Shown one piece after another: positions 17,238-52,215 of a stretch of DNA of 64,000 bases; position 1 is the first letter of the stretch, and every line of letters starts with the position of its first letter. Where the stretch lies: contig NZ_CP060397.1 in NCBI RefSeq assembly GCF_015840715.1, positions 62,001-126,000 of the forward strand, read 5' to 3'. The stretch is from Synechococcus sp. CBW1004 (GTDB lineage Bacteria > Cyanobacteriota > Cyanobacteriia > PCC-6307 > Cyanobiaceae). Both the position numbers and the translations under genes were made by a program. The notes under the pieces are model-generated. The model saw nothing but the letters and a program-made list of their open reading frames with translations. It was not told where the DNA came from and searched no databases.

Positions 17238-18377
17238 TCAGCCGGGGATCTGCACCACGAGGCTCTGGCGGTTGTTCGCCTGGCGGCAGGCCTCCTCCAG
17301 GATGCGCCGCTCAGGATCGACGATCACCTCCAGCCGGTGGCGGCCGGGTGCCAGGTTCAGGGGCATGCGCACCTGCTCCCCTTCGCCCGCCCCCAGCCAG
17401 GGGAGGTGCAGGTAGCGGTGATCGCTCCAGCGATCTTCGATCACCACCGCCACGCCCACGTCGCTGGCATCGAGGTTGCCTTCGTTCAGCACCGAGAACC
17501 GCAGCTCCCCCGCTTCGAAGCTCAGCTCCCGGATGGCCAGATCGGAGGCCATGGCATGGATCGTCTGCAGCGGGTAGAGCACCAGCCGCTCCAGCTCCTG
17601 CAGCCGGCTGCCCGGGTGTTCATGGTGCAGGTGGCCGCCGTGGCGCAGATCGGTGCTGCAGCCGTGCAGGTGCAGGTGGGCGCCGGTCGCCGGCACCGTC
17701 ACCCGCCCCAGCTCCGGCTGGGTGTCGTAGAAGCCGCAGCCGTCCCAGTGCAGGCTGCGGCCCAGCCAGCGCACCGGATCGCCGGGGGTGGCGGGATCCT
17801 CCGCACTGAGGCGGAAGTGGGGCAGCCGCTCGTAGATCGTCGCGCCCACGCCCGCCTCGCCGCCCGCCAGCGCCTGCAGCCGCGCCAGGCCATCGTTGCG
17901 CCGCAGCTGGCCCATGCAGAGCTTGGAGGCCACCGTGATCACCAGCGACTCCCAGAGGCTGAGGAGCCGCAGCCCGTACAGCGGTGCCCGCTCCAGGCTG
18001 CCGGCGGCGGTCATCGCGGCGATCGCCCCGCCGATCGTCTCCTGCAGGGGCCTGCCCCCGGCGCCGCTCAGCAGCTCCGCCGGCACCGGCCGCCGCAGGG
18101 ACGTGGCGTCATCGCTGAAGCAGACGTAGGGGAAGTGGCTGAGCCCGGAGCCGCCGGTCAGCCGGCGGATGCTGCCATCGGAGGGTTCGCTCTTGTAGAT
18201 GCTGCTGCCGCCGTCGGGCCCGGTCTGCAGAAAGGTGAGTTCGCCGTTGTCCCAGCCGCTGGTGGTGCCGAGGCCGAGCACATCGCCCCGCAGCGGGATC
18301 CGCTCCAGGGGCAGGTGCTCCTGCACGTCCCCGTGCACCAGATCGGTGACCGTGTTGGCGATGTGAAGACGGACCAT
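17238..18377 (-). CDS. Acetolactate decarboxylase-like protein with C-terminal CARDB-like domain
   Basis: A 379-residue protein. Residues about 16-62 (HGDVQ, then GLGTTSGWDNGELTFLQTG) align by eye with the acetolactate decarboxylase (AlsD/BudA) N-terminal half. Residues 236-249 hold the zinc-site pattern His236-x-His238 and His249 with the same spacing and GGH ending as AlsD. The segment of about 140 residues between is unlike AlsD and helical. Residues about 285-379 resemble a CARDB beta-sandwich (EGNLDASDVGVAVVIEDR). Canonical enzymes make acetoin and are about 240-260 residues long, so activity here is uncertain. No acetolactate synthase gene is nearby. Confidence 0.65.
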   Translation of the reverse strand: MVRLHIANTVTDLVHGDVQEHLPLERIPLRGDVLGLGTTSGWDNGELTFLQTGPDGGSSIYKSEPSDGSIRRLTGGSGLSHFPYVCFSDDATSLRRPVPAELLSGAGGRPLQETIGGAIAAMTAAGSLERAPLYGLRLLSLWESLVITVASKLCMGQLRRNDGLARLQALAGGEAGVGATIYERLPHFRLSAEDPATPGDPVRWLGRSLHWDGCGFYDTQPELGRVTVPATGAHLHLHGCSTDLRHGGHLHHEHPGSRLQELERLVLYPLQTIHAMASDLAIRELSFEAGELRFSVLNEGNLDASDVGVAVVIEDRWSDHRYLHLPWLGAGEGEQVRMPLNLAPGRHRLEVIVDPERRILEEACRQANNRQSLVVQIPG

Positions 18378-23711: not shown

Positions 23712-23912
23712 GGGGATCCTGCTGTTCGGCGGATCTTCTCACGACTCACCTCGCGGGCCTGAGCGAGGCCTGTTGCGGGTTTGGGCGTTCCCAGGCCCTG
23801 GCCTGAGCGATGGGGCACGCCCGGGACGATCGGCGCTGCGTACCGCGGTGGGTTCTCTTCCGCTCAGCGCTGTCACCATAGGGGGGGGCCTCTCCGCCCT
23901 GCAGGCATCTTG

Positions 23913-26039
23913 ATGCTGCCTCCGCCGTCGCCGCCGTCGCAGCAGGGGGCCCCACAGGCGTCCGTTGAGGCGCGCTCCGCAGGGGATCCATCGGCCCAGG
24001 CACCTGCCGCCGTCCCTGCCACCGCGCGGCGGCTGCTCTCTGCGTTTCGCCGGTTGTTGATCGGCAGCCAGCGGCGCCTGCCTCTGGTTGTTCTGGTGCT
24101 GGGTCTCGGCCTCACCGCGGCCGTCGCTGAACAGACCCGTCGTCTCGGTCAGCAGAGCCATGAACAGATCGAGCGGGCCCTGCTCGATGACGTCGCCGAT
24201 GCGATCGAGATGAAGCTCAAGGAGGTGATCGACACGATCAACGGCGTGGCGGGCCTGTTCAACGCCTCCGCAGAGGTGGATCGGCGCGAATTCAGCACCT
24301 ACTACGAGACGCTGCGCCGCGAGGAGAACAGTCTCGCCGGCATCCAGGGCATCGGCTTCAGCCGCTTCCTCACCGCGGCCCAATGGCCATCCCAGACGGC
24401 GGCGCTGCGTGCGGAGGGTTTTGACGATTTCACGATCCGTCCACCGGGGCCGCGGCCCTACGGCAGCGCGATTGTCTACCTGGAGCCCTTCGACCTTCGC
24501 AACCAGCGGGCCTTCGGGTTCGACATGTACAGCGAGCCCGTCCGTCGCCGGGCCATGGATCGTGCCGCGCAGACGGGGCGGGCCTCGCTGTCGGGTCAGG
24601 TGCAACTCGTGCAGGAAGGCACCATCGACGTGCAGCCCGGGGTGCTGATCTATCTGCCGGTCTGCCGCCAGGGAACGCGCACGCCGCCGCGTTCCGCCTC
24701 GCAGTACTCCACAACGCTGCAGGGGTGGGCCTACGCGCCGATCCGGGTGGGGGATCTGGTGCAGGCGGCGCTGCGCACGATCAACAACCCTGTGCTGGCC
24801 GGTTCAACCGTGCGGGTGTACGACGGCGACACGGTCGCGAGCAGCGATCTGATTTTCGACAACACCCGCCAGCAGAATCGCCCGTCGCTCGGCCACGCCC
24901 AGTACCAGCCGATCACCGTGGCGGGTCGACGCTGGAGGATCGGTATTCAGCTCAGCGATCAGCTGATCGGTCCGGGCGGCTGGTCCGGCCAGGTGCTGCT
25001 GGTGCTGGTGCTCGGTTCGATGGGGACAGTGATTGCTTCGCTGGCGACGGCGATGCTGATCACGAATCACCTGCGTACCCGTGAAGCCCTGGCGATCGCC
25101 GAGAAAGCCAATCAGGAGCGGGCCCTGGCCGCCACCGTGTTCGAGGCCAGCCCCGAGGCGATCGTCGTCACCGATTCCCAGGGCAGGGTGCTGTCGGCCA
25201 ATCAGAGCTTCGCCCGCATCACGGGCTATGCCGGAGCCGAGATCCTGGGGCGCAGTCTCAACCTGCTCAAGTCCGGGCGGCATGAGGGTGATTTCTACGC
25301 CCGGCTCTGGGAGGACGCCCGCGAGCGAGGGTTCTGGCAGGGCGAGATCTGGAACCGGCTGCGCAGCGGCGAGATCCGTCGCCATGAGCTGAGCGTCACC
25401 GCCGTGCACGACTCCGCTCTGCAGATCAGTCACTTCGTGGGCATGCTTCAGGACATCACCGATCGCCACCACGCCCAGGAACTGGTGCGCTACAGGGCTC
25501 TTCACGATGAGCTCACCGGGCTGCCGGGGCGGGCGATGCTGCAGGAGAAGCTCAATGTCGCCCTGGCCGTGGCGGAGCGGCAGGGCGGCCATGTGGGCCT
25601 GCTGTTTCTCGATCTCAACGGCTTCAAGCCGGTCAATGATCAGTACGGTCATGCCATCGGCGACCGGGTGCTGCGGCTGGTGGCCCAGCGCCTGCGCGCC
25701 GCCACCCACAGCGAGGATCTGGTGGCGCGCCTGGGCGGCGATGAATTCGTGATCCTGGTGCCGCGGGCCATCGGTCTGGAGGAGCTGCAGGCCTTCGCTC
25801 AGAAGATCCAGGCGGTGATTCGCCTCTGCAGCAGCGAGTTCGATCTGCCGATCGCCATCAGCGCCAGCATCGGCATCGCTCTTTCGCCGCAGCATGGCAT
25901 CAGCTCCGGGCAGCTCCTCGATGCCGCCGATCAGGCGATGTATCGCTCCAAACAGGACGACAGCCATGGCATCACCATCGCCCGGCAGGTGCCGACGACG
26001 CTCGCCGCTCCGGGGGATGACAGCCAGCCTGGGAGCTGA
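23913..26039 (+). CDS. CHASE-PAS-GGDEF membrane diguanylate cyclase
   Basis: A 708-residue sensor. A first membrane helix (about 50-70) is followed by an extracytoplasmic CHASE domain (about 75-320, with IQGIGFSRFL), a second helix (about 360-390), a PAS domain (about 405-520, ITGYAGAEILGRSLNLLKSG) and a C-terminal GGDEF domain with intact GGDEF in RLGGDEFVIL. It should make c-di-GMP from two GTP. The usual inhibitory RxxD site five residues before the GGDEF is HSED here, so feedback inhibition is probably absent. The ATG at 23913 is the first that excludes the Pro/Arg-rich upstream frame. It converges on cupS with no gap between stops. Confidence 0.92.
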   Translation: MLPPPSPPSQQGAPQASVEARSAGDPSAQAPAAVPATARRLLSAFRRLLIGSQRRLPLVVLVLGLGLTAAVAEQTRRLGQQSHEQIERALLDDVADAIEMKLKEVIDTINGVAGLFNASAEVDRREFSTYYETLRREENSLAGIQGIGFSRFLTAAQWPSQTAALRAEGFDDFTIRPPGPRPYGSAIVYLEPFDLRNQRAFGFDMYSEPVRRRAMDRAAQTGRASLSGQVQLVQEGTIDVQPGVLIYLPVCRQGTRTPPRSASQYSTTLQGWAYAPIRVGDLVQAALRTINNPVLAGSTVRVYDGDTVASSDLIFDNTRQQNRPSLGHAQYQPITVAGRRWRIGIQLSDQLIGPGGWSGQVLLVLVLGSMGTVIASLATAMLITNHLRTREALAIAEKANQERALAATVFEASPEAIVVTDSQGRVLSANQSFARITGYAGAEILGRSLNLLKSGRHEGDFYARLWEDARERGFWQGEIWNRLRSGEIRRHELSVTAVHDSALQISHFVGMLQDITDRHHAQELVRYRALHDELTGLPGRAMLQEKLNVALAVAERQGGHVGLLFLDLNGFKPVNDQYGHAIGDRVLRLVAQRLRAATHSEDLVARLGGDEFVILVPRAIGLEELQAFAQKIQAVIRLCSSEFDLPIAISASIGIALSPQHGISSGQLLDAADQAMYRSKQDDSHGITIARQVPTTLAAPGDDSQPGS

Positions 26040-26441
26040 TCAGCCGGGCAGGATCACCCGGTTGAGCACATGCACGATGCCGTTGTCACAGGTGATGTCG
26101 GCCTGCAGCACCGTGGCGTTCTTCACCTCGAAGGGGTCGGCCCGACGAATCGGCACCGGGGCTCCTTCCAGGCTCTCCCATTCGGCATGCACGATCAGCT
26201 CCTCGCGTCTGTGGGCACCGGCGAGAACGTGATATTTGAGGATGCGGGCCAGCTGGGGGGTGTTGTCCACCAGGGTATGCACGGTGCCGGGCGGCAGGGC
26301 CGCGAAGGCGTCGTCGACCGGCGCGAACACCGTGAACGGACCGGGACTCTCCAGGGCGGCGGTCAGGCCGGCCAGCTCGACGGCGGTGAGCAGGGTGTGG
26401 AAGCAGCCGGCGGCCTGTGCCGCTTCGAGGATCGTGGCCAT
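26040..26441 (-). CDS. cupS: Fasciclin-domain protein CupS of the CO2-uptake NDH-1MS complex
   Basis: A 133-residue single FAS1 domain: MATILEAAQAAG, then GPFTVFAPVDDAFAALP (H1 box, about 33-49), ILKYHVLAG (about 66-74) and DNGIVHVLNRVILPG (H2 box) at the end. There is no signal peptide. Size, domain and position right after cupA match CupS, the small fasciclin-fold subunit of the inducible high-affinity NDH-1MS complex of cyanobacteria. It lies 95 bases downstream of cupA. This gene is my main reason for calling the cluster ndhF3-ndhD3-cupA rather than ndhF4-ndhD4-cupB. Confidence 0.85.
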   Translation of the reverse strand: MATILEAAQAAGCFHTLLTAVELAGLTAALESPGPFTVFAPVDDAFAALPPGTVHTLVDNTPQLARILKYHVLAGAHRREELIVHAEWESLEGAPVPIRRADPFEVKNATVLQADITCDNGIVHVLNRVILPG

Positions 26442-26536: not shown

Positions 26537-27847
26537 TCAGCGGTAGTCCTGGGTCTGGATGGCACCGAGGCGGGCCTCAGGGCGCAGGAAGCGATCCATC
26601 TGGGCCTCGAAGAAGCGGCGGTTGGCCATCAGATGCTCGGGATCGCTGTCATCGAGCGGGTAGAGCAGGGCGCAGCGCAAGGCCTGGATCACCGCGGAGG
26701 TGACGTTGTACATCGAGCGCTGGAAGGTGATGCCCAGCTGCACCAGCTGATCCTCCTCGCCGCGGCGGTGCTGTCTGTAGAGCTCCTGCAGATAGGGCGG
26801 CAGGAAGTGCAGCATGTCCTGCATCAGCAGGGTGGGCGGAATGCCGGCGGACCCCACGGGGAAGACATCGGCGTACAGGATGCCGTAGTGGAAATCGGCC
26901 TGATCGGATGGCACCTGGCCGGCCTGGGCGTTGTAGCTCTTGGTGCCGCGGAAGGGGGCCGTGCGATAGAAGACAGCCTCCACATATGGAAGGGCCGCTT
27001 CGTACAGCCAGGTGAACCCCTCCGATTTGGGGATCACCTCGATGCATTCGTCGCCCACATGGACGTGGTGGTAGATCGGCCGGCCGGCAACGGCAAAGAT
27101 GCCGTTCACCAGGAAATTCATCGCATCGGGCACTCCCTGGAAGCCGCCTTCGTCGTAGATGTCGCTCATCTCGAAGAAGACTGGTGCCATCACCTCCCAG
27201 AACAGGCCGAGATTGGCGTAATAGCTCATCTGTTTGACCTGTTCCATGAACATTTCAGGGAACAGCGCATACAGACCCAGCATCAGCGGGTTGCCCCGGA
27301 AGTAGGCCCTGATCGCCCGATCGGCATTGGCCCGGTAGGCGTCGCTGGCCAGATAGTCGTTGAAGCGCCCGCCCATGCCCTGATGCCAGAGCATCGCCTG
27401 CATGCAGGCCTCGGCGAACTCCATGTTGATGCGGTCGTGCCACAGGTGATGCAGCAGCTTCGGCATCCTGCCGGTCTCGCCCCTGGCCATGAACGCGAGC
27501 AGTTCGGGATGGGCCTGTTCGCCGCCGCGCCAGATGCGCAGCTTCGATTGATCACCGGCGTAGGAGTTGGGGCGATCGAGATACTCCTGGCTGGGGAAAT
27601 ACTTGAACGCCGGCAAGGGGTTGAGGAACACCCGTTCGGCGATGTAGAGCAGATCGCGCCAGTAGAAATCCATCGGCACGGCGTAGGCTTTGTAGATGCC
27701 GATGATCTGCATCAGGTTCTCCGGCGAGTCGGGCAGCATCGAACCCCCCGCTTCCAGCCGGTGAATCACATCGGCCCAGCGGTGCTGGGATGGGGGGATG
27801 AGCGGAGCCTTGCTGGGCGCGTCGAGGGTGGCGTTGGCGGGCGTCAT
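26537..27847 (-). CDS. cupA: CO2 hydration protein (CupA/ChpY)
   Basis: A 436-residue soluble protein of the ChpX/ChpY family, which sits on the NDH-1 membrane arm and hydrates CO2 to bicarbonate, coupled to electron flow. The family-specific stretches include MQIIGIYKAYAVPMDFYWRD near residue 46 and the His-rich YHHVHVGDECIEVIPK near residue 259. Its ATG overlaps the ndhD3 stop by four bases (ATGA), so the two are translationally coupled. ChpY against ChpX is decided here by the cupS neighbour rather than by residue-level evidence. Confidence 0.9.
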   Translation of the reverse strand: MTPANATLDAPSKAPLIPPSQHRWADVIHRLEAGGSMLPDSPENLMQIIGIYKAYAVPMDFYWRDLLYIAERVFLNPLPAFKYFPSQEYLDRPNSYAGDQSKLRIWRGGEQAHPELLAFMARGETGRMPKLLHHLWHDRINMEFAEACMQAMLWHQGMGGRFNDYLASDAYRANADRAIRAYFRGNPLMLGLYALFPEMFMEQVKQMSYYANLGLFWEVMAPVFFEMSDIYDEGGFQGVPDAMNFLVNGIFAVAGRPIYHHVHVGDECIEVIPKSEGFTWLYEAALPYVEAVFYRTAPFRGTKSYNAQAGQVPSDQADFHYGILYADVFPVGSAGIPPTLLMQDMLHFLPPYLQELYRQHRRGEEDQLVQLGITFQRSMYNVTSAVIQALRCALLYPLDDSDPEHLMANRRFFEAQMDRFLRPEARLGAIQTQDYR

Positions 27848-29463: not shown

Positions 29464-29755
29464 CAGCGCATCGACATGGCGGTCACGCCGTGGGTCCGGA
29501 ATCCGGCCGGCCTTCGGGTGGGCGGGAAGCTACTGAACGTCCGCTGCCGTTGTCGCGGCTTGAAGAAAGGAAGTCGCGATCGTTGAGACAAGCAACTCTG
29601 ATCGTTGGCCGTGGCCTCTCGCCTGGTGCTGCGGACTGCGCACGGCAGGCTTCTGTTCCCACGACACCCGAGTGATGGTGTTGGACCGGTCGGAGCGGGC
29701 CGCGATGAAGCTCAATTCAGGGAGCGAGCTGCATCAGGTTGCAGCGCCGGAGGGC

Positions 29756-31708
29756 TCAGTCGCTGTTGCGCCGCCCACCGAGAAACGGCAGGCGCAGATA
29801 GGAGCGCAGCTGCCGGCGGCGCGTGTCCTGAATGCGCCGGCCTTTGATCGGAATCGCCCGTGGCCGGTAATCGAGTTTCTGCAGCAGGGTGATCGACTCG
29901 CTGATCGAGATCGGCACGGAGAACAGGAAGCCCTGGGCGGTGACGGTGCCATGCCGCAGCAACCATTGGCGCTGCTGCTCGTCTTCCACTCCCTCTGCGG
30001 TGACCTCCAGGTTCAGATCCGTCAGCATCGTCAGCATCGTGCGCAGCAGAGTCCGAGGGGAATCGGTGTCATCGGTGAGCTGGCAGATGAAGGCGCGATC
30101 GATCTTCACGGCCTGGATCGGCAGGGAGATCAGCCTCGCCAGTGAGGAGTAGCCGGTGCCGAAGTCATCGATGGCGATCCGCACATGGCGCTCCACGAGG
30201 GCAGCGAGGAACTGGCTGAATTCCCCGCTGGTGTCCTGGAAGATGTCTTCCAAAAGTTCCACCTGCAGGCGCCAGCCGGGAGGGCAGGGGTTGTCATCGA
30301 TCAACCCGAGCAGGCGTTTCCTCAGCTCTTGATCTTCCAGCAGGATTCCCGAGACGTTGAAGCTCAGCCGCATCTCGCGCAGCGGCACCGGCTGGGCGAG
30401 CAGCGGCATCGCGGCCAGGGCCTTCTCGATGATCAGCAGATCAAGTTCTCCGGTGAGACCGCATTCGGCCGCCAGCGGGATGAAGGTATTGGGCAGCAGC
30501 AGGCCGTCGGAGCGGGGCCAGCGGGCGAGAGCCTCGAATCCGATCGGTTCCGTGGTGCTGAGATTGACGATGGGCTGCAGGAAGGGTTCCAGCGCCTTGG
30601 CGGCAATCGCTTCGCGGAATTCGGATTCGAGTCGATAGCTCTCGCGGGCTGCCACGCGTGATTCGCCATCAATGAAGCGATAGGCATTGCCACTGAGGCG
30701 GCTGGCCATCCGCACCGCCATGCTGGTGTCAGCCAGGATGGCCTCGGAGCCGTCATAGTTCTGGCGACGCACAGCGATGCCGATGGACAGGGCCATCGAC
30801 AGCGACTGCTGGCCACTGCGATAGATGTGGTTGGCAAAGGCAAGGATCCGCTCGGCCACCTTGCGCAACTCGCCCTGTTCCACGAAGAAGGGCAGCAGCA
30901 CAATCAGCTCTGCGTCGGAAAAGCGGGCCACCGAGGCGGAACGGGGAATCGATGCAAGCACGCGACGGGCGGCTTCGTTCATGTATTCCTCCGCCACGAT
31001 GCCGCCGAGAGTGGAATTCACCCGCTCGTAATCCCGGAAACGGCAGCGCATCAGACTGAACTCTGACTCCAGCTCCATGCTGAACATCAGATCCAGCATC
31101 TGCACCATCTGATCGCGGCTGATCAGTCGCTCCAGGGAGCTGAGGCGCTCGCTGGTGAGGCCGCGCAACTGCTCCACGGTCATGGCAGAGGCATCGGCGG
31201 CCAGCAGCGTGGATTCAAGCAGATATTCCAGCTGCTGCACGGTCAGCTTGGCCAGTCGTCGGATGCCGTTGATCTGGTCGTCGTTCAGCTGGTGGGGCTG
31301 GCGGCTGATCGCGCAGAGGCTGCCGATCACGAAGCCATCGGCGGTGATCAGCGGAAAGCCGGCATAGAAGCGCAGATAGGGCTCTCCGACCACGAGGGGA
31401 TTGTCGGCGAAGCGGGGGTCGGCGAGCGCATCGGGGATGATCAGCGGTTCGCGCTGCAGGATTGTGTGGCCGCAGAAGGAGATGTCGCGCGGCGTCTCCT
31501 GCTGTCCCAGGGGTGCGCCCACACAGCTCTTGAACCACTGGCGGTTGCTGTCCACCAGGCTGACGATGCCGATCTCGGTGCCAGCGAGATAGCGGGTGAG
31601 TTCACTGATGTCATCAAACTTGGGATCCGCCTCCGTATCCAGAACGCCGAAGCTGTACAGCTTCTGTAAACGTTCCGCTTCGTCGTCTGGGATCAGAGGG
31701 GGTTCCAT
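29756..31708 (-). CDS. GAF - degenerate GGDEF - EAL protein, probable c-di-GMP phosphodiesterase
   Basis: A 650-residue soluble protein. GAF domain at about 1-165, GGDEF-like domain at about 200-350 with the active-site motif replaced by SDAEL (264-268), and an EAL domain from about 362. The EAL catalytic set looks complete: EAL 392-394, Asn451, Glu484, DDFGTG 514-519, Lys535 and Asp537, Glu572 and Gln592. I therefore expect c-di-GMP hydrolysis with the dead GGDEF and the GAF as regulatory parts. It lies six bases downstream of the cyclase gene and ends the three-gene cassette. Confidence 0.9.
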   Translation of the reverse strand: MEPPLIPDDEAERLQKLYSFGVLDTEADPKFDDISELTRYLAGTEIGIVSLVDSNRQWFKSCVGAPLGQQETPRDISFCGHTILQREPLIIPDALADPRFADNPLVVGEPYLRFYAGFPLITADGFVIGSLCAISRQPHQLNDDQINGIRRLAKLTVQQLEYLLESTLLAADASAMTVEQLRGLTSERLSSLERLISRDQMVQMLDLMFSMELESEFSLMRCRFRDYERVNSTLGGIVAEEYMNEAARRVLASIPRSASVARFSDAELIVLLPFFVEQGELRKVAERILAFANHIYRSGQQSLSMALSIGIAVRRQNYDGSEAILADTSMAVRMASRLSGNAYRFIDGESRVAARESYRLESEFREAIAAKALEPFLQPIVNLSTTEPIGFEALARWPRSDGLLLPNTFIPLAAECGLTGELDLLIIEKALAAMPLLAQPVPLREMRLSFNVSGILLEDQELRKRLLGLIDDNPCPPGWRLQVELLEDIFQDTSGEFSQFLAALVERHVRIAIDDFGTGYSSLARLISLPIQAVKIDRAFICQLTDDTDSPRTLLRTMLTMLTDLNLEVTAEGVEDEQQRQWLLRHGTVTAQGFLFSVPISISESITLLQKLDYRPRAIPIKGRRIQDTRRRQLRSYLRLPFLGGRRNSD

Positions 31709-31713
31709 GGCCG

Positions 31714-32937
31714 TCAGCGGCTCATCTCGGAGGGGAGTGACAGGCGACTGACCAGCTCGCCATCATTCCATTCCAGCCGATTGCGGCCGCGACGCTTGGC
31801 TGTGTAGAGGGCCTTGTCAGCTGAATTGTAGAGAAAGTCAACGTTGTAGCCGCATTGGGCGGTGGCCGCCGCGCCGATGCTCACCGTGAGCGGAATGTTG
31901 TGACCGTTGTAGAGAAGTCTGTTCATCTCCAGCTGCAGGCGAAGACGCTCCAGCGCTTTGGCTCCGGCCTCGCGGGGAGCCGAGATCAGCATGGCGAACT
32001 CCTCCCCCCCGAAGCGACAGACCAGGTCTTCGGGTCTGGTGACGGTGAGCAGCAGGGAACCCACCGAGGCCAGGGCAGCGTCACCACAGCCATGGCCGTA
32101 GGTGTCGTTGATGCGCTTGAAGTGGTCGATGTCAAGGATGGCAAACACCAGATCTCCCTGGCGTTCCTCCGCTTCGGCGAGCACCTCCATGGCCAGATCC
32201 ATGAAGGGGGTGCGATGCATCAGTTGCGTCAGGGCATCCGTCTGGGACGCCTCCACCAGCTGGGGCAGCATCCTGGCCGAGATCACGCACCAGAGACCTG
32301 CTGCCAGCACAGCTGCGATCATCGCGGAGATCAGCACCAGCCAGGGCACATCCTGCAGGACATCGCTGATGAGCATGCCCGCATCAAAATTGACCACCAC
32401 CAGAAAGGGCTGTCGCGGCAGGCCGAGATCCGTCGGCGGCATCCAGACAGGGCGCACGATGCTGATGCCGCTCAGATGAAGATTCCAGTCTTCACTGCGC
32501 AGCTCCATGCAGGAGGTGTCCTGGCGTTGGAAGCACTGCACCACAGCACTGAAGTCAGGGTCGTCCTGGCCCATCTGCCGAAAGAGCCGATCACTGATCG
32601 GAAGTGCCGGCCAGGCTGGGCGCGAGCTGTAGGCGACCTTGCCGCTGCGATCGAGGACCAAGGTCACATTCACCCGGTCAAAGCGCTGGGTTCGGTTGGT
32701 CTGGGTGTAGGACTCCAACAGCTGCTGCCGTTGTTTGCTCGTCATCGGTATGCGGAGGCTGGAGGCCACCAGATGGGTGATCTGCTGCCCTTCCCGCACC
32801 GTTTGTTTCTGGTGTTCCCAGAGGTCGTAGAGGGTCAGCGCCGTGCTGATCACCAGGGTGGATCCCAGCCAGTAGGTGATCAGCAGCTGCCTCAGAAACT
32901 GACCGGTCTGCCTGAGGGAGGAGGGGAGCGGGATCAT
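31714..32937 (-). CDS. Membrane GGDEF diguanylate cyclase with periplasmic sensor
   Basis: A 407-residue protein: membrane helix (about 15-36), an unclassified extracytoplasmic sensor (about 40-195) with two Cys (135 and 143), second helix (about 197-219) and a GGDEF domain with intact GGEEF at 310-314. An RxxD inhibitory site (RPED, 301-304) lies exactly five residues before it, so product feedback is expected. The DHFKRINDTYGH substrate motif is at 271-282. It overlaps the stop of the upstream LOV sensor gene by four bases (ATGA), so the two are coupled in translation. Confidence 0.92.
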   Translation of the reverse strand: MIPLPSSLRQTGQFLRQLLITYWLGSTLVISTALTLYDLWEHQKQTVREGQQITHLVASSLRIPMTSKQRQQLLESYTQTNRTQRFDRVNVTLVLDRSGKVAYSSRPAWPALPISDRLFRQMGQDDPDFSAVVQCFQRQDTSCMELRSEDWNLHLSGISIVRPVWMPPTDLGLPRQPFLVVVNFDAGMLISDVLQDVPWLVLISAMIAAVLAAGLWCVISARMLPQLVEASQTDALTQLMHRTPFMDLAMEVLAEAEERQGDLVFAILDIDHFKRINDTYGHGCGDAALASVGSLLLTVTRPEDLVCRFGGEEFAMLISAPREAGAKALERLRLQLEMNRLLYNGHNIPLTVSIGAAATAQCGYNVDFLYNSADKALYTAKRRGRNRLEWNDGELVSRLSLPSEMSR

Positions 32938-34406
32938 GTGCTCTTGCTGTAGCGCTCAATCACGCCTGAGATCTCGGCAAGAGAAGCCTCGACATTCTGA
33001 TGGGCCTGTTCCTCCGAGCGCAGGAAGGCCTCCTGCTCCACGGCGCAACCGCCGCTCTGCTCGAGCTGCCGTTGCAGGGCCTCGGCAAAGCGTCTGGCAT
33101 CGTGGAGTGCCGCGCGGGCGGCTGCCACATCGTTCTCGAGGCTGCTGAGTTCCTGCAGAGGTACGCCCCTCTCCAGCTTGAGATGGGTGATGTCCACCTG
33201 ATTGGCCACGAAGAAATCAGGCTTGCCGCTGCTGCCTCCCACGGGTGAGAGAGTGAGGCGATTCCAGAAGCGACTGCCATCGTTGCGATAGTTGATCAGC
33301 TCACCGCTGTAGGGCTGCCCCTGATTCAGGGCGTCCCGGATCCGGCGCACCTCCGCCGGATCGGTATCGGGCCCTTGCAGGAAGCGACAGTTGTAGCCAA
33401 TCGCCAGGTCTCTGCTGTAGCCGGTGATCCTGGTGAAGGCCTCATTCACATAGATGAGGGGCCGGTCTGGTTTGCGCATGTCGGCAATGGCGATGCCCAC
33501 GACCGAATTGTCAACCGCCGTGCCGAACAGGGACAGCTCCTGCAGCTGATCGCTCATCCGGGCCGCGAGCTCTGACTCACGCGCATGGACGGTGCTCAGC
33601 TTTTCGTTGATCTTCCCCAGGTTGCGGCTCTGTCGCTGGAAGACCCAGGCCGCCGCCACCGACAGCAGGCCGAGGAGGGAGATATAGCCAAGCAACGTAC
33701 CGATCTTGCCGAAGCTGTTCACCTGCAGCCCGCGCACGGTGACCTCCTGAATGCCGCGGATATCGCCCACCTTCCAGTCCCGCTTGGGTGAATCGGGATG
33801 GGTGTTGTGGCAGGTGACGCAGGCCTGGCGCATGATCACCGGCGTGGCCAGCCGGTAGGAGGAGCGGCCGAGGCCGTTGCCCTGAAGCTGGGTGTAGGTG
33901 GTTCGCTCCGGATCGGCACGGAAGGCGTTGATCGCCCTGGACTCGAACGGGTCCAGCTGGCGGGCCACGCGTTTGGCAAAGGGATAGTCAGAGATGAATT
34001 CGTAGGAAATGCGTCCGTCGCGATGGGCGTTGTCAAACAGTGCGCCCAGCTCGATCGAAAGGGTGGCGGGAATCGGGATGCCACCATGAATGTCGCGGTA
34101 GTTTTCGCTGTACACCGCTTTGCCATCGGCAGCCTGCAGACGGGCAATCACGTTGTCGGCGTAATAGGCGCGGATGTCGGTGGCCAGGCTGGCGATTTCC
34201 TCGGCCTGCATCTTCATCTGGGCCACCGTGGCATCGGAGATGGAGTTCACCATCACAACCGGCAGCAGCAGCAAGGCTGCCAGCAGCAGCCACAACACCG
34301 TTTCCGGCCGCACCAGCATCGCCAGCCGCCTTTGCAGCCAGAGGATCGTGCTCTGAAAGCGCCTGGGGTCCCTCCAGGACAAAGTTCTTCGGGCAATTTC
34401 AGCCAA
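32934..34406 (-). CDS. Heme-c (Tll0287-like/DUF3365) plus LOV blue-light sensor protein
   Basis: A 490-residue membrane protein. Helix (about 37-53), extracytoplasmic DUF3365 domain (about 55-235) with a c-type heme motif CVTCH at 196-200, second helix (about 236-256), then a PAS domain (about 290-410) that carries the full LOV signature GYNCRFLQGPDTDP with the photoactive Cys340, plus VNEAFTRITGYS and FWNRLTLSPV. A coiled coil (about 415-485) ends the protein; there is no kinase or cyclase domain. I infer that it senses redox or ligand outside and blue light through FMN inside, and signals to the cyclase encoded next to it. Heme loading and flavin binding are predictions from the motifs. Confidence 0.85.
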   Translation of the reverse strand: MAEIARRTLSWRDPRRFQSTILWLQRRLAMLVRPETVLWLLLAALLLLPVVMVNSISDATVAQMKMQAEEIASLATDIRAYYADNVIARLQAADGKAVYSENYRDIHGGIPIPATLSIELGALFDNAHRDGRISYEFISDYPFAKRVARQLDPFESRAINAFRADPERTTYTQLQGNGLGRSSYRLATPVIMRQACVTCHNTHPDSPKRDWKVGDIRGIQEVTVRGLQVNSFGKIGTLLGYISLLGLLSVAAAWVFQRQSRNLGKINEKLSTVHARESELAARMSDQLQELSLFGTAVDNSVVGIAIADMRKPDRPLIYVNEAFTRITGYSRDLAIGYNCRFLQGPDTDPAEVRRIRDALNQGQPYSGELINYRNDGSRFWNRLTLSPVGGSSGKPDFFVANQVDITHLKLERGVPLQELSSLENDVAAARAALHDARRFAEALQRQLEQSGGCAVEQEAFLRSEEQAHQNVEASLAEISGVIERYSKST

Positions 34407-34458
34407 GGAAACCAGCCACCGCCCAAGCGCGCCGCTCCAGGTTAGCGCTCAGGTGCAG

Positions 34459-34563: not shown

Positions 34564-36443
34564 TCAGAGTCCTGCCAGCAGCCAGGCGGCCATCAGCAGC
34601 ACTCCCAGCACCAGTGTCAGGGCATAGGCCTGGGAGCGGCCGGAGGTGGTGAGGCTGAGGCGGCGGGCACCGATCAGCGCGGCACCGCCGGTGGCACCGC
34701 TGAACTCATCCACCACCCGCAGCTCGGACCAGCGGCTGAGGCGGGCCAGCAACAGCACCAGGGCGACGACAGTGCGGTGATAGAAACGCTCGGTCTGCAT
34801 GTCGTGCGCCAGCCAGTCCTGCAGGCCGCCCAGGGCGGCGGGAAGCTGGGCCAGGGGGTGAGGCCGCAGGTAGAAGACGGCCGAAAGGCCACCCCCGATC
34901 AACGTCGACAGAAGCAGAGGCAGTGCGAGCGGGCCCCAGCCCGGCAAGGGATCGAGGGCCAAGACGCCATTGCGCACCAGCAGCTGGGGCAGGTGCAGCA
35001 CCAGGCCCATCAGCAGCAGCGTGGGCAGGGCCATCAGCCAGAGCACTTCGGGAGAGCGCATCGTGAACGGCGTCGGCTGCCCGGCCCAGATCAGGCCGAA
35101 CACCCGCATCAATCCGGCGCTGATCAGGGCATTGGTGAGCAGCACCAGGCCGCCGAGCAGGAGGGGATGGCTGCTGCCCGCCGTCAGGCTGAGAAGCTCC
35201 CGCAGGGCCGCGAAACCACCGAAGGGGGGCAGGGCGACCAGGCTCACGGCCCCGCTGAGGAAGGCCAGACCCATCAGCGGGCGCTTGCTCCACAGGCCCC
35301 CCAGCTGGGTGAGGTCCTGGGTGACGTTGGTGAGCACGATCGCACCCACCGCCATCAGCATCAGGGCCATCGGCAGCGGGTAGACGAGCATCAGGTGGTC
35401 GGCCACCGGGATGCCGTCGAGGCCCACCGCCACGAACAGCAGCCCCATCCAGCTGGTGACCAGGAAGGAGAGCGCCCGCTTGACATCGATCTGGGCCAGG
35501 GCGATCAGGGCTCCCACCAGGGCGCTGGTGCCGCCCACCACCACCAGCACCGACTGCACCAGCGGCACCATCTCGATCAGCGGCTGCAACCGCAGCAGCA
35601 CCCAGGCGCCGCCGACCACCACCACCGAGTTGCGCAGCACGGTGGAGGGGAGCGGACCCTCCATGGCTTCATCCAGCCAGAGGTGCAGGGGGATCTGGGC
35701 GCATTTGCCCATCGGACCGGCGACCAGGGCGAGCACGATCAGGCTGAAGCCGGCAGGCAGCGGCAGCTGGTTGTTGGCCTGATCGGCGGCCCAGGCCTGG
35801 AGGCCTGGAAATTCCAGGTGCCGGTGAGCGGCAGCAGGGCGATCACGCCGGCCAGGAGGATCAGGTCACCGATGCGCTTGGTCAGAAAGGCGTCGCGCGC
35901 TCCCTTCACCACCAGGGGCTGGTTGTACCAGGTGCCCACGATCAGATAGGTGCCCAGGGTCAGCAGCTCGAGAATCACGTAGCTGAAGAACAGGGAGTCG
36001 GTGAGCACCAGGGCGCACAGGCCGGCCTCGAAGAAGCTGAGCGAGCCGAAGAAGCGCGGCCAGCCCCAGTCCATCTCCAGGTAGGCGATCGCATAGATCT
36101 GCACCAGCACGTGCAGGGCCGTGATCACGGTCATCGCGATCAGGGCCGGTTCGGTGATCAGGCCGTCGAACCCGATGCGCAGACCGGCGGTCTGCAGCCA
36201 GGTCCAGCCGAAGGTGAGCGGCCGGTAGATCGCCGACGAGCCGGCGCCGGAGTTGGAGTGCAGGGCCACCAGGGCGGCGGCGCTGTGCACGAAGGCCAGG
36301 CTGCCGAGCAGCAGGTTGAGGTAGCCGCAGGGCCGCGGGCCCGTGCGGGAGATCAGTCCCGGCGACCAGAGCAGCGACAGCAGCGAGGCCAGCAGGGGAT
36401 AGAGCGGGATCAACCAGGCCGTCTGGGCCGGGAGCAGGGTCAT
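34564..36443 (-). pseudogene. ndhF3: NAD(P)H-quinone oxidoreductase subunit 5, CO2-uptake form (NdhF3), with one frameshift
   Basis: The N-terminal third (36443 down to a stop at 35739) and the C-terminal part (from about 35800 down to 34564) lie in different frames but together give an NdhF of about 626 residues with the expected helices and landmarks (MDWGWPRFFGSLSFFEAGL, SYVILELLTLGTYLIVG, VAGPMGKCAQIPLHLWL). Adding one C to the TTTCCAGG at about 35806-35811 (minus strand) restores a frame that reads on smoothly into AAD-QANNQLPLPAGF. The rest of the operon is intact, so a base-calling error is more likely than true loss, but a real mutation cannot be excluded. NdhF3 is an antiporter-like subunit of NDH-1MS. 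Confidence 0.85.
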
Positions 36444-49995: not shown

Positions 49996-52215
49996 TCAGG
50001 ATGTTCGGAGAGGGTTGTCCCGTGCGCATGAACGGGTCAGCTCCTGCACAAGGAAGGTCCCGACCAGGATCCAGATCAGGCTCTGTACCAGTGAGCTTCC
50101 AGGCAATGCATCGAGAAGACGCTGTGGCGTCCAGACAGATGCCGCCATGGATGCGGCCAGTACCCCTTCAAGAATCCTTGGGCGACCGAGGGCAAGCCTG
50201 AACACCACAAGAAGCGCGGGATAGAGCATGAGGTTGTCGTAATAGCGGTGATAGAAGCCGAGCTGTCCGAGCACCCCGCAGAAACCAGCCAGACCCAGAG
50301 GATCGCCAACTAGAAGGGATTCCATCGTTCTGAACACGGTGGACAGATTCCTGCGGCCGAAGACCGTTCCCAGCACAGCGGCAACGCAGACGACTCCGGC
50401 GAACAGCATCAGGGAGGCCTGGCTTGAGGCTCGAAATAGATTGGTCAGAAGAGCTACGGCATTGAGGTTGGAACTGCTCATGAACTGAGGCAAAACGCTG
50501 ATCCAGCTGCGCAGATAAATATCCAACTCGACGTTGGTGTGGTGCAGAGCTAGAAATGAAAGTCCCGTCAACACACCCAGGCCCAGCAGGAGTCCAGGAA
50601 GGCGCCTGGGTGTCAGGAATGGCAGTGCGTAGGTGAGGCCGATCTGAGGTTTCACCATCGCAAGGGACCAGAGCAGACCAGCGGGCAGGTTTCGCTGTCG
50701 TTGGAGAAGCAGCCATTGAAGACTGATCAGTCCCATGCAGATGATCGAGAATTGTCCTTTGTTCAAGGCGCTGAAGTTACCGGCAATGGCCAGCGGCGCC
50801 AGGGTTCCCAGCCATCCGGCTGAAGCGCCGAAGGATCTGAGGCTGAACCAGCCGATCCTGGCGATCAGCACCAATGAGAGCAGGCTCAGAAGATGAAGGA
50901 TCCAGGTGCCTTGGATCCATCCACCCAGGACGAAGAAGGGGCCGAACAAGGGCAGCGCCCAGGGCAGGTAGACCGTGGTCCGAAAGTCGGGCAGGGAGCG
51001 CTGCAGGGGTGTCGCCAACATGGCAGATGGATAGATGCCGTCCGCAAAGAGCTGCCACTCAGCCCAGCGTTCGCGAAGGTCAAACGGAGTGAGGATCCAG
51101 GTGCTGATCAACCCGGCCAGGAGGGTGGAGATGGCGAGCAGGCCCAGCAGCATCAGACTCCAACCAACCAGCCGACCCTGGAGGGCGGGGCGATGTTGCA
51201 GCCAACTGGGCCAGTGCAGCGGCCGTTGCAGAAGATCCAGCAAGGTCAGCACGGCAAAGGTGACGCCCGAATAGCTGAGAACCAGGCCGTGCAGCACGAT
51301 GCCAACACAGGCTTCAGGCGGACCGCCTCGGCGAAAAAGCAGCCCATAGAAGTTGCGATTAAGTAGCAGCAACAGCGCCAGGCAGCCGCCAGCTAGCGCC
51401 AGCGACATGGGTCGCAACGCAGGCATCCAGGCCGCCACCAGCAGGGCCAGAGGTAGCAGCAGGCTGGCAGCGGCACTGAGGCGTGCAGTCGGATCGAGGT
51501 TGAGGGTGGTCGGCAGTTCCCGGCGTCTCAGCAGAAGCTGGCTCCAGGGAATCGCCCGTTGGCGGATGTCGGTGGACACCATCGAGCGCAGGGTCCAGCG
51601 CTTGTGGTGGGTTCCCTGAATGGCGGGGTCAAGGATGATCATTCCACCGGCGTCGCTGAGCCGCAGGCCGAACTCGATGTCCTCGATGCAGGGTCGGTCG
51701 TAGGACACGGCATCGAACCCCCCCAGATCCAGGAACGCCTGCCGGCGCACGGCGCCGAGCCCAGCCCAGAAGGTGCAGGCCGGCCCGGGATGGCTGCTGT
51801 GGGTGTGGTGGTGCAGCAGATTGCGGAAGCGGCTCACCAGCCCGGGATCGGCGGGCGTGTCGTCGTAGCTGCCGAACACCGCCGCGAGGGCAGGACTGTC
51901 GGCGAAGTGCTCCCGGATACGGCCTGCCGCATCGGGATGGACCTGGACGTCAGCATCGACGAACCACAGGATCTCGCCACGCGCTTCACGCGCGGCCAGG
52001 TTGCGGGCAGAGGCGGGACCCGAACGTCGCCCGGTGCTCAGAAGCCTGACCGGGCTGTGCAGGAGCCAGTCCGGTGGCGGCGGCGGCTCGCCGTCGAACA
52101 CCACGAGGGCCTCATCCTGGGGGGCAAGGGCTGCCAGTGAGGCGCACAGGCAGGTGGCGCAGGGCTCCTCCCAGCTGATGGTGGGCATCACCAGGGTGAG
52201 GGAGGGGTGGGGCAT
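49996..52215 (-). CDS. GT2 glycosyltransferase fused to a multi-spanning GT87-like domain
   Basis: A 739-residue protein. The N-terminal 290 residues are a GT2 domain: LTLVMPTISW, RNLAAREARGEILWFVDADVQVHPDA (the DxD at about 94-96), and CIEDIEFGLRLSDAGG. After two helices (about 260-350) comes a domain of about 400 residues with some ten helices and MVKPQIGLTYALPFL and YHRYYDNLMLYP, like polyprenol-dependent GT87/DUF2029 mannosyl- or arabinosyltransferases. The fused enzyme may both make and use a lipid-linked sugar. The start could also be 24 codons upstream, at 52287. Confidence 0.75.
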   Translation of the reverse strand: MPHPSLTLVMPTISWEEPCATCLCASLAALAPQDEALVVFDGEPPPPPDWLLHSPVRLLSTGRRSGPASARNLAAREARGEILWFVDADVQVHPDAAGRIREHFADSPALAAVFGSYDDTPADPGLVSRFRNLLHHHTHSSHPGPACTFWAGLGAVRRQAFLDLGGFDAVSYDRPCIEDIEFGLRLSDAGGMIILDPAIQGTHHKRWTLRSMVSTDIRQRAIPWSQLLLRRRELPTTLNLDPTARLSAAASLLLPLALLVAAWMPALRPMSLALAGGCLALLLLLNRNFYGLLFRRGGPPEACVGIVLHGLVLSYSGVTFAVLTLLDLLQRPLHWPSWLQHRPALQGRLVGWSLMLLGLLAISTLLAGLISTWILTPFDLRERWAEWQLFADGIYPSAMLATPLQRSLPDFRTTVYLPWALPLFGPFFVLGGWIQGTWILHLLSLLSLVLIARIGWFSLRSFGASAGWLGTLAPLAIAGNFSALNKGQFSIICMGLISLQWLLLQRQRNLPAGLLWSLAMVKPQIGLTYALPFLTPRRLPGLLLGLGVLTGLSFLALHHTNVELDIYLRSWISVLPQFMSSSNLNAVALLTNLFRASSQASLMLFAGVVCVAAVLGTVFGRRNLSTVFRTMESLLVGDPLGLAGFCGVLGQLGFYHRYYDNLMLYPALLVVFRLALGRPRILEGVLAASMAASVWTPQRLLDALPGSSLVQSLIWILVGTFLVQELTRSCARDNPLRTS

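Follow-up and report, generated by a model that had tools for sequence, protein, structure and literature searches.

Possible coupling of a transferable light- and redox-controlled c-di-GMP module to inorganic-carbon acquisition in Synechococcus sp. CBW1004 and its relatives

The control of a membrane diguanylate cyclase by separate proteins of one small gene set is known from YfiBNR of Pseudomonas, which is not known to include a photoreceptor, a phosphodiesterase or carbon genes. A set of similar build, encoding a haem-c/LOV sensor, a membrane diguanylate cyclase and a GAF-GGDEF-EAL protein (hereafter the trio), is described here from Synechococcus sp. CBW1004. It lies between ndhF3 and ndhD3 of the NDH-1MS operon in a stretch of 64,000 nucleotides (the window; positions 62001-126000 of the 3.67-Mb single-contig genome, G000). 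With the Tll0287/DUF3365 haem-c Cache sensors (sCache_heme; PMC12889525, a preprint), the sensor of the trio shares PF11845, an invariant CXXCH motif and two framing helices. In the architectures named there, the domain stands alone or is fused to kinases, methyl-accepting chemotaxis proteins, PAS domains, cyclases or GGDEF/EAL domains, whereas in the trio the haem-c domain is followed by LOV and by no output domain. Nitric oxide (NO)-sensor properties have been reported for a signalling member of this family (PMC12889525). Blue-light input through LOV to enzymes of cyclic dimeric guanosine monophosphate (c-di-GMP) metabolism is shared with the LOV-activated diguanylate cyclases (PMC10396304) and with SL2 of Synechococcus elongatus, a LOV-GGDEF-EAL protein (PMC13001216); unlike these, the trio splits input and enzymes over three proteins and adds a haem-c input. 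A photoreceptor interacting with a separate diguanylate cyclase is likewise known in Cph2-Slr1143 of Synechocystis, but that photoreceptor senses red light, and neither a haem-c domain nor a carbon-gene link is mentioned in the accessible part of the source (PMC10117731).

The host operon of the trio in the window, ndhF3-ndhD3-cupA-cupS, has the known regulators NdhR, RbcR, cyAbrB2 and CupAR, none of which appears as a c-di-GMP enzyme in the portions of the sources at hand (PMC13249358, PMC11456788). Among second messengers, cyclic AMP and cyclic di-AMP (via SyCRP1 and SbtB) have been tied to the CO2-concentrating mechanism (CCM) or to carbon metabolism, while the roles given for c-di-GMP are motility, aggregation and cell differentiation, with at most an indirect role via ComFB bound to SyCRP1/2 (PMC10117731, PMC13249358). 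One hint that fits a link between c-di-GMP and carbon comes from Synechococcus elongatus, in which a strain with high c-di-GMP shows similarity to a cmpR mutant, the involvement of CmpR being left open by the authors (PMC13001216). At the level of titles and abstract openings, the literature matches listed contain no link of c-di-GMP enzymes to the gene neighbourhoods of NDH-1MS, SbtA, BicA or the carboxysome.

The trio and its genomic settings

The trio is a rare conserved module. Relatives of the sensor, sought at E <= 1e-40 among 400 genomes of the family, were found at 18 loci in 15 of them, and a one-off insertion in a single strain is thereby rejected. In most copies neighbouring genes of the trio overlap or stand apart by just a few bases, and the arrangement is not a matter of chance, because other genomes carry the trio as a unit too. 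On the sensor alignment, twelve copies are 57-77% identical to the window (69% for G035) and make up a close group, and six at 51-55% make up a distant one (type 2). Where the context could be read, 10 of 11 close copies adjoin inorganic-carbon genes; this count excludes G286, whose contig is too short for neighbours, and takes G035 by its sensor, its cyclase and phosphodiesterase being on another short contig (9/11 by the cyclase coordinate). The sites are of five kinds (Table 1): three are defined by NDH-1MS (within it, upstream of it or downstream of it), one lies between rdgB and csoS1D next to sbtAB and carboxysome genes, and one is near bicA.

The evidence from location for a carbon coupling is good, and it is because the close copies nearly always stand beside carbon genes that such a coupling is inferred. 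The trio is thus read, from sequence, as a transferable light/redox-controlled c-di-GMP switch coupled to inorganic-carbon acquisition, with a probability of roughly one half (about 0.52). If true, this mobile module would bring one more second messenger, along with two input signals, into the carbon-concentrating system. Its carbon-side placement suggests an unrecognised link between c-di-GMP and carbon capture, a question open to testing by simple removal of the genes. The sequence-only reading had proposed that c-di-GMP is tied to inorganic-carbon uptake, and position speaks for this, both through the 10/11 close copies and through other c-di-GMP genes adjoining these loci. It had also held that the same cassette at unrelated loci would tell against the idea: other loci do carry it, those of one close and six distant copies being unrelated, but they are mostly other carbon loci.

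Identification of these sites rests on several kinds of match. The BicA of G199 scores above the cut-off of the NCBIfam BicA equivalog and the G275 protein clusters with it, while sbtA is identified by PF05982. The gene named csoS1D is presumed to be so from its BMC domain and a CcmP match below the threshold. In G199 there is no PF05982 match, and its single ChpXY match looks, by length, like ChpX and not CupA.

Table 1. Features of the window and settings of trio copies in other genomes
Feature	Position	Strand	Description
Sensor	34406-32934	-	490 amino acids, TTG start; transmembrane helix, Tll0287-like haem-c Cache, transmembrane helix, LOV, C-terminal coiled coil
Membrane diguanylate cyclase	32937-31714	-	407 amino acids; GGDEF domain, GGEEF motif, RxxD
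GAF - degenerate GGDEF - EAL protein	31708-29756	-	650 amino acids; predicted c-di-GMP phosphodiesterase
Promoter-like GCTAACCT	34439..34446	-	-10-like TAACCT; 40 bases ahead of sensor start
Trio-ndhD3 spacer	29464..29755	-	TAGCTTCCC common to the three in-operon copies; seen by eye
ndhF3, split in two frames	36443-35739 + 35736-34564	-	whole span 34564..36443
ndhD3	29463-27844	-	
cupA (ChpXY, CO2 hydration protein)	26537..27847	-	ChpXY match E 3.2e-158
cupS	26040..26441	-	fasciclin domain
CHASE-PAS-GGDEF diguanylate cyclase	23781-26039	+	convergent with cupS, abutting
G257 trio	91 bp upstream of ndhF3	same as ndhF3	
G035 trio	0.7 kb downstream of cupS	same as cupS	
G278 trio	1.9 kb downstream of cupS	same as cupS	
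G024 trio	between rdgB and csoS1D		adjoins sbtAB-carboxysome genes
G208 trio	between rdgB and csoS1D		adjoins sbtAB-carboxysome genes; NDH-1MS 1.6 kb away
G199 trio	3.5 kb from bicA		
G275 trio	5.9 kb from bicA		NDH-1MS 12 kb away, same contig and strand
G063 trio	no carbon gene nearby		AbrB-like regulator gene directly upstream

Predicted activities of the three proteins

The three genes are packed tightly on one strand between ndhF3 and ndhD3, where the sequence-only reading had put them, and their domains match those it had named. Its four-base overlap between sensor and cyclase (32934-32937) is likewise found, while the gap between the cyclase and the third gene counts 5 bases (31709-31713) and not six.

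The sensor matches PF11845 (E 8.8e-21) as well as PAS/LOV, and carries the motifs CVTCH and GYNCRFLQ. Its haem-c motif (C196, C199, H200) is invariant in all 17 aligned sensor copies, as expected of a Tll0287-like haem-c Cache domain. The same holds for the LOV residues NCRFL (N339, C340, R341, F342, L343), N372, N382 and Q403, which make up a complete LOV motif (GxNCRFLQ, a reactive Cys, flavin-contacting Asn and Gln); the roles of these residues are the ones usual for LOV domains. This domain matches solved LOV domains both by model and by sequence. In the structural model (mean predicted local distance difference test score, pLDDT, 77.6) long helices flank the haem domain, followed by LOV and a long coiled coil, with no enzyme or output domain; the haem-c domain is inferred to face the periplasm or lumen. 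Six relatives of the haem domain at greater distance were checked: five have it fused directly to a guanylate-cyclase domain and one to GGDEF. As all six are fusions to a nucleotide-cyclase domain, it is plausible by analogy that the sensor would signal to the adjacent cyclase. A fusion of the haem-c Cache domain to a guanylate cyclase domain was also noticed on a contig of a Vulcanococcus metagenome-assembled genome (L129:9758-11374).

The second protein matches GGDEF at E 1e-38, and its GGEEF motif is invariant in 17/17 copies, which predicts diguanylate cyclase activity; an RxxD inhibition site was noticed by eye. Between its two helices lies an N-terminal domain with the invariant cysteines C135 and C143, and the GGDEF fold of its model (mean pLDDT 85.3) matches 6ttr and others. 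In a separate locus (L063:11452-12668, M_surface_10_m2_119) the cyclase of a trio upstream of ndhF3 is split in two frames. The third protein matches EAL at E 6.3e-54, and the residues E392-A-L-x-R396, N451, D514 D515, K535, E572 and Q592 are invariant in the 11 aligned copies. The full phosphodiesterase motif (EALxR, Asn, DDFGTG, Lys, Glu, Gln) is present, predicting activity; the catalytic roles of these residues are the ones usual for EAL phosphodiesterases. A dual cyclase/phosphodiesterase is rejected, for ARF(S/A/T)(D/E)(A/S/T)E replaces GG(D/E)EF in 11/11.

Taken together, the haem c of the sensor may read the periplasmic or lumenal redox state, or NO or O2, and the LOV domain blue light. 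Having no output domain, the sensor would use its coiled coil to convey this state to the membrane cyclase, to the EAL phosphodiesterase or to both. The c-di-GMP so made or removed would tune carbon acquisition or report carbon status, acting through a PilZ-type receptor or another, unnamed one. PilZ proteins are present in 12/12 genomes, and two of the trio hosts, G199 and G257, have a PilZ gene close to the trio, at distances of 1.3 and 2.4 kb (L183:7069-7605; L178:12968-13513). The c-di-GMP receptor ComFB was found in 0/12, and the published ComFB route from c-di-GMP to SyCRP1 is therefore unavailable to them.

Insertion, movement and transcription

The sequence-only reading held that ndhF3 and ndhD3 are usually adjacent, and synteny across the genus agrees. 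Present in 40 of the 42 genomes, ndhD3 lies within 52 bp of ndhF3 in 37, of which 32 have a candidate ndhD3 start codon that shares one base with the ndhF3 stop. From this, adjacency is taken to be the ancestral state and the trio to be a derived insert. The trio lies between the two genes in 3/40 genomes, those of the window, Cyanobium sp. FGCU6 (G029) and CZS25K (G062), and hence holds no conserved NDH-1MS operon position across relatives. A transposon or integrative element is rejected, as no repeat pair frames it and none of the ten surrounding proteins scanned is a mobility protein.

Trees of the trio proteins group the three in-operon copies (support 100/100), the window with FGCU6 (98/98), and likewise the copies downstream of cupS in G278 and G035 (99/99). 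The NDH-1MS proteins do not group the three in-operon hosts (approximately unbiased (AU) test, p 0.013, 23/42 rows). The groups tested were named after seeing the trees or sites, so that the AU p values are guides only. In G024 and G208, which belong to different genera, the 5.95-kb rdgB-trio-csoS1D block is 91.8% identical in DNA and the adjoining sbtAB 72%. Empty sites, with rdgB adjoining csoS1D, are seen in G022 and G029, with no scar as judged by eye; in G000 this stretch holds no GGDEF gene. Simple vertical inheritance is rejected because the trio and NDH-1MS trees disagree, and since the trio tree follows the site and not the host, the module is, on these comparisons, one that moves horizontally.

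The two other in-operon trios are only 72-74% identical in DNA to that of the window, and the ndh flanks have neither elevated identity nor a recombination or recent transfer tract; the in-operon transfer is therefore not recent. An old insertion into ndhF3/ndhD3 may have been followed by replacement in other lineages. The suggestion in the sequence-only reading of a recent insertion into the operon thus holds for a derived insert that moves between hosts, but not as to its age.

With regard to transcription, GCTA occurs at -38 to -41 before the sensor in 6/11 close copies, including all three inside the operon; the odds of the -10-like element (p 1.7e-9) were computed after noticing it and ignore kinship between copies. 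This element suggests that the trio has its own promoter, and TAGCTTCCC in the spacer before ndhD3 is a possible second one. The promoter and terminator scan gave nothing beyond shuffled sequences. Because a conserved -10-like element precedes the sensor, one RNA spanning the whole operon is doubtful. The in-operon trio would probably be read from its own promoter, with read-through from ndhF3 as a possible addition, so that its position may serve joint inheritance or such read-through and not strict co-transcription.

In G035, G278 and G257 the gene immediately preceding the sensor encodes a small protein starting MYDC/MIDC (L182:7198-7557; L178:10596-10928; L142 ~17627-18028). It has no Pfam or NCBIfam match (one copy scanned), and is not CupAR, which has two transmembrane stretches, whereas the small protein looks soluble by eye.

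Proposed carbon coupling and competing explanations

Hitchhiking is the alternative that survives best, although it is rated less probable than not. Here, the carbon loci would be conserved, recombination-prone landing sites by way of which accessory genes spread, and the c-di-GMP of the trio would act elsewhere, on adhesion, polysaccharide or pili, with no functional tie to carbon uptake. Transfer with the whole flanking 5.95-kb block and a trio phylogeny that follows the site are what it would predict, and the promoter-like element of the trio's own and the location of all six type 2 copies elsewhere agree with it. Further, in each of the seven close copies for which both values were obtained, the trio has a lower GC content than ndhF3 and ndhD3, although in several of them cupA is equally low or lower still. 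Against hitchhiking, the carbon sites are of five kinds and not one, and the trio is on the NDH-1MS strand in 8/8 linked cases.

Two further points against it come from unrelated cyclase genes. Away from the trio, GGDEF genes are rarely at carbon loci: among the 150 hits listed, out of 261, from 11 genomes, 3 of the 136 non-trio ones lie within 10 kb of a cupA/ChpX, sbtA or bicA-type gene, all three at the cupS end. Those that do adjoin the same loci belong to several types. The CHASE-PAS-GGDEF gene, correctly described in the sequence-only reading as converging on cupS (the gene ends at 26039, next to base 26040 of cupS), has relatives of >50% identity in 8/42 genus genomes, the window included. 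In 6/6 genomes with visible linkage the gene abuts cupS convergently, five of them without a trio at the operon. In FGCU6 a dCache-GGDEF gene follows cupS by 81 bp on the same strand (L061:18102-19568), and near bicA in G199 there is a PAS-GGDEF-EAL gene (domains by eye). At the edge of the alpha-carboxysome cluster, an ODP-GGDEF gene, whole or as a broken GGDEF part, adjoins csoS1D in 11/18 genus windows (L245, L249-L257; PF19583 and PF00990 confirmed for three, the others by eye and position); ODP is here taken to be of the oxygen-binding diiron type. This gene is broken or lost in L246, L254, L256, L243 and L140. G022 retains a remnant only, and in G024, where an internally deleted remnant persists, the trio stands on the other side of csoS1D, as if the ODP-GGDEF gene had been replaced by it. 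From these neighbourhoods a wider idea may be put forward tentatively, as possible but not probable: c-di-GMP could be a working CCM messenger in Cyanobium-type picocyanobacteria, with light, haem-redox, ODP, Cache and CHASE cyclases repeatedly recruited to NDH-1MS, SbtA, BicA and carboxysome loci, and with one module moving between loci and genera as a carbon-acquisition regulatory cassette.

Several observations weigh against a coupling of the trio to carbon acquisition. None of the six distant copies has NDH-1MS, sbtAB, bicA, Rubisco or carboxysome protein matches in the 16-20 kb stretches examined, and the carbon link is therefore not intrinsic to the module; a carotenoid-isomerase-like gene instead stands next to four of them (L180, L188, L186, L187; sub-threshold NCBIfam match for two). 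The close copy of G063 is also without a carbon gene nearby. At least two GGDEF genes beyond the listed 150 of 261 do lie near carbon loci. GGDEF genes occur in 9/39 NDH-1MS windows against 4/40 systematic 18.5-kb control windows (G022 and G000), a difference that is not significant (p 0.14); the former count combines 7/37 by script with the window and G035 (trio sensor only), omits G017 (contig of 3.6 kb) and includes many windows cut by contig ends. The sbtA/carboxysome windows hold GGDEF genes in 12/18, an excess owed mostly to one close clade. The promoter-like element before the sensor speaks against simple co-transcription with the operon, and the absence of ComFB in all 12 genomes removes the described receptor.

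A reversal of the direction of control is rather unlikely. The trio would then be placed to follow the low-CO2 regulon, and carbon status would set c-di-GMP and thereby behaviour (aggregation, motility, polysaccharide), not the CCM. The same-strand placement in or next to NDH-1MS in the eight linked cases would suit this, as would the low-CO2 induction of the NDH-1MS operon in Synechocystis and Synechococcus PCC 7002 (PMC11456788) and the mainly behavioural control by c-di-GMP in known cyanobacteria (accessible part of PMC10117731). It is opposed by the promoter-like element before the sensor, and by the trio being on the opposite strand from the transporter gene beside sbtA and bicA.

Lastly, the sequence-only reading overlooked a frameshift in ndhF3, which is one base short near 35805/35806 relative to 4/5 aligned relatives (the fifth, L062, has several gaps at the site and is uninformative); the missing base falls in a His codon of the relatives, outside any homopolymer, and reflects either mutation or sequencing error. 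That the operon is broken in the window strain, and its neighbourhood thus uninformative on present function, is very improbable, given that ndhD3, cupA, cupS and the trio are all open, that ndhF3 is open in both other genomes with the trio inside the operon, and that a one-base difference in just one assembly could be an artefact.

Some minor observations may be added. The gene directly upstream of the trio in G063 (L184:10518-10889) is AbrB-like (PF14250); cyAbrB2 regulates CCM genes in Synechocystis, as given in the accessible text of PMC13249358. Rfam and tRNA scans of the window returned no matches. Between positions 50000 and 61000 of the window the GC content drops to about 52-67%, from about 70% before, which makes this region a genomic island candidate.

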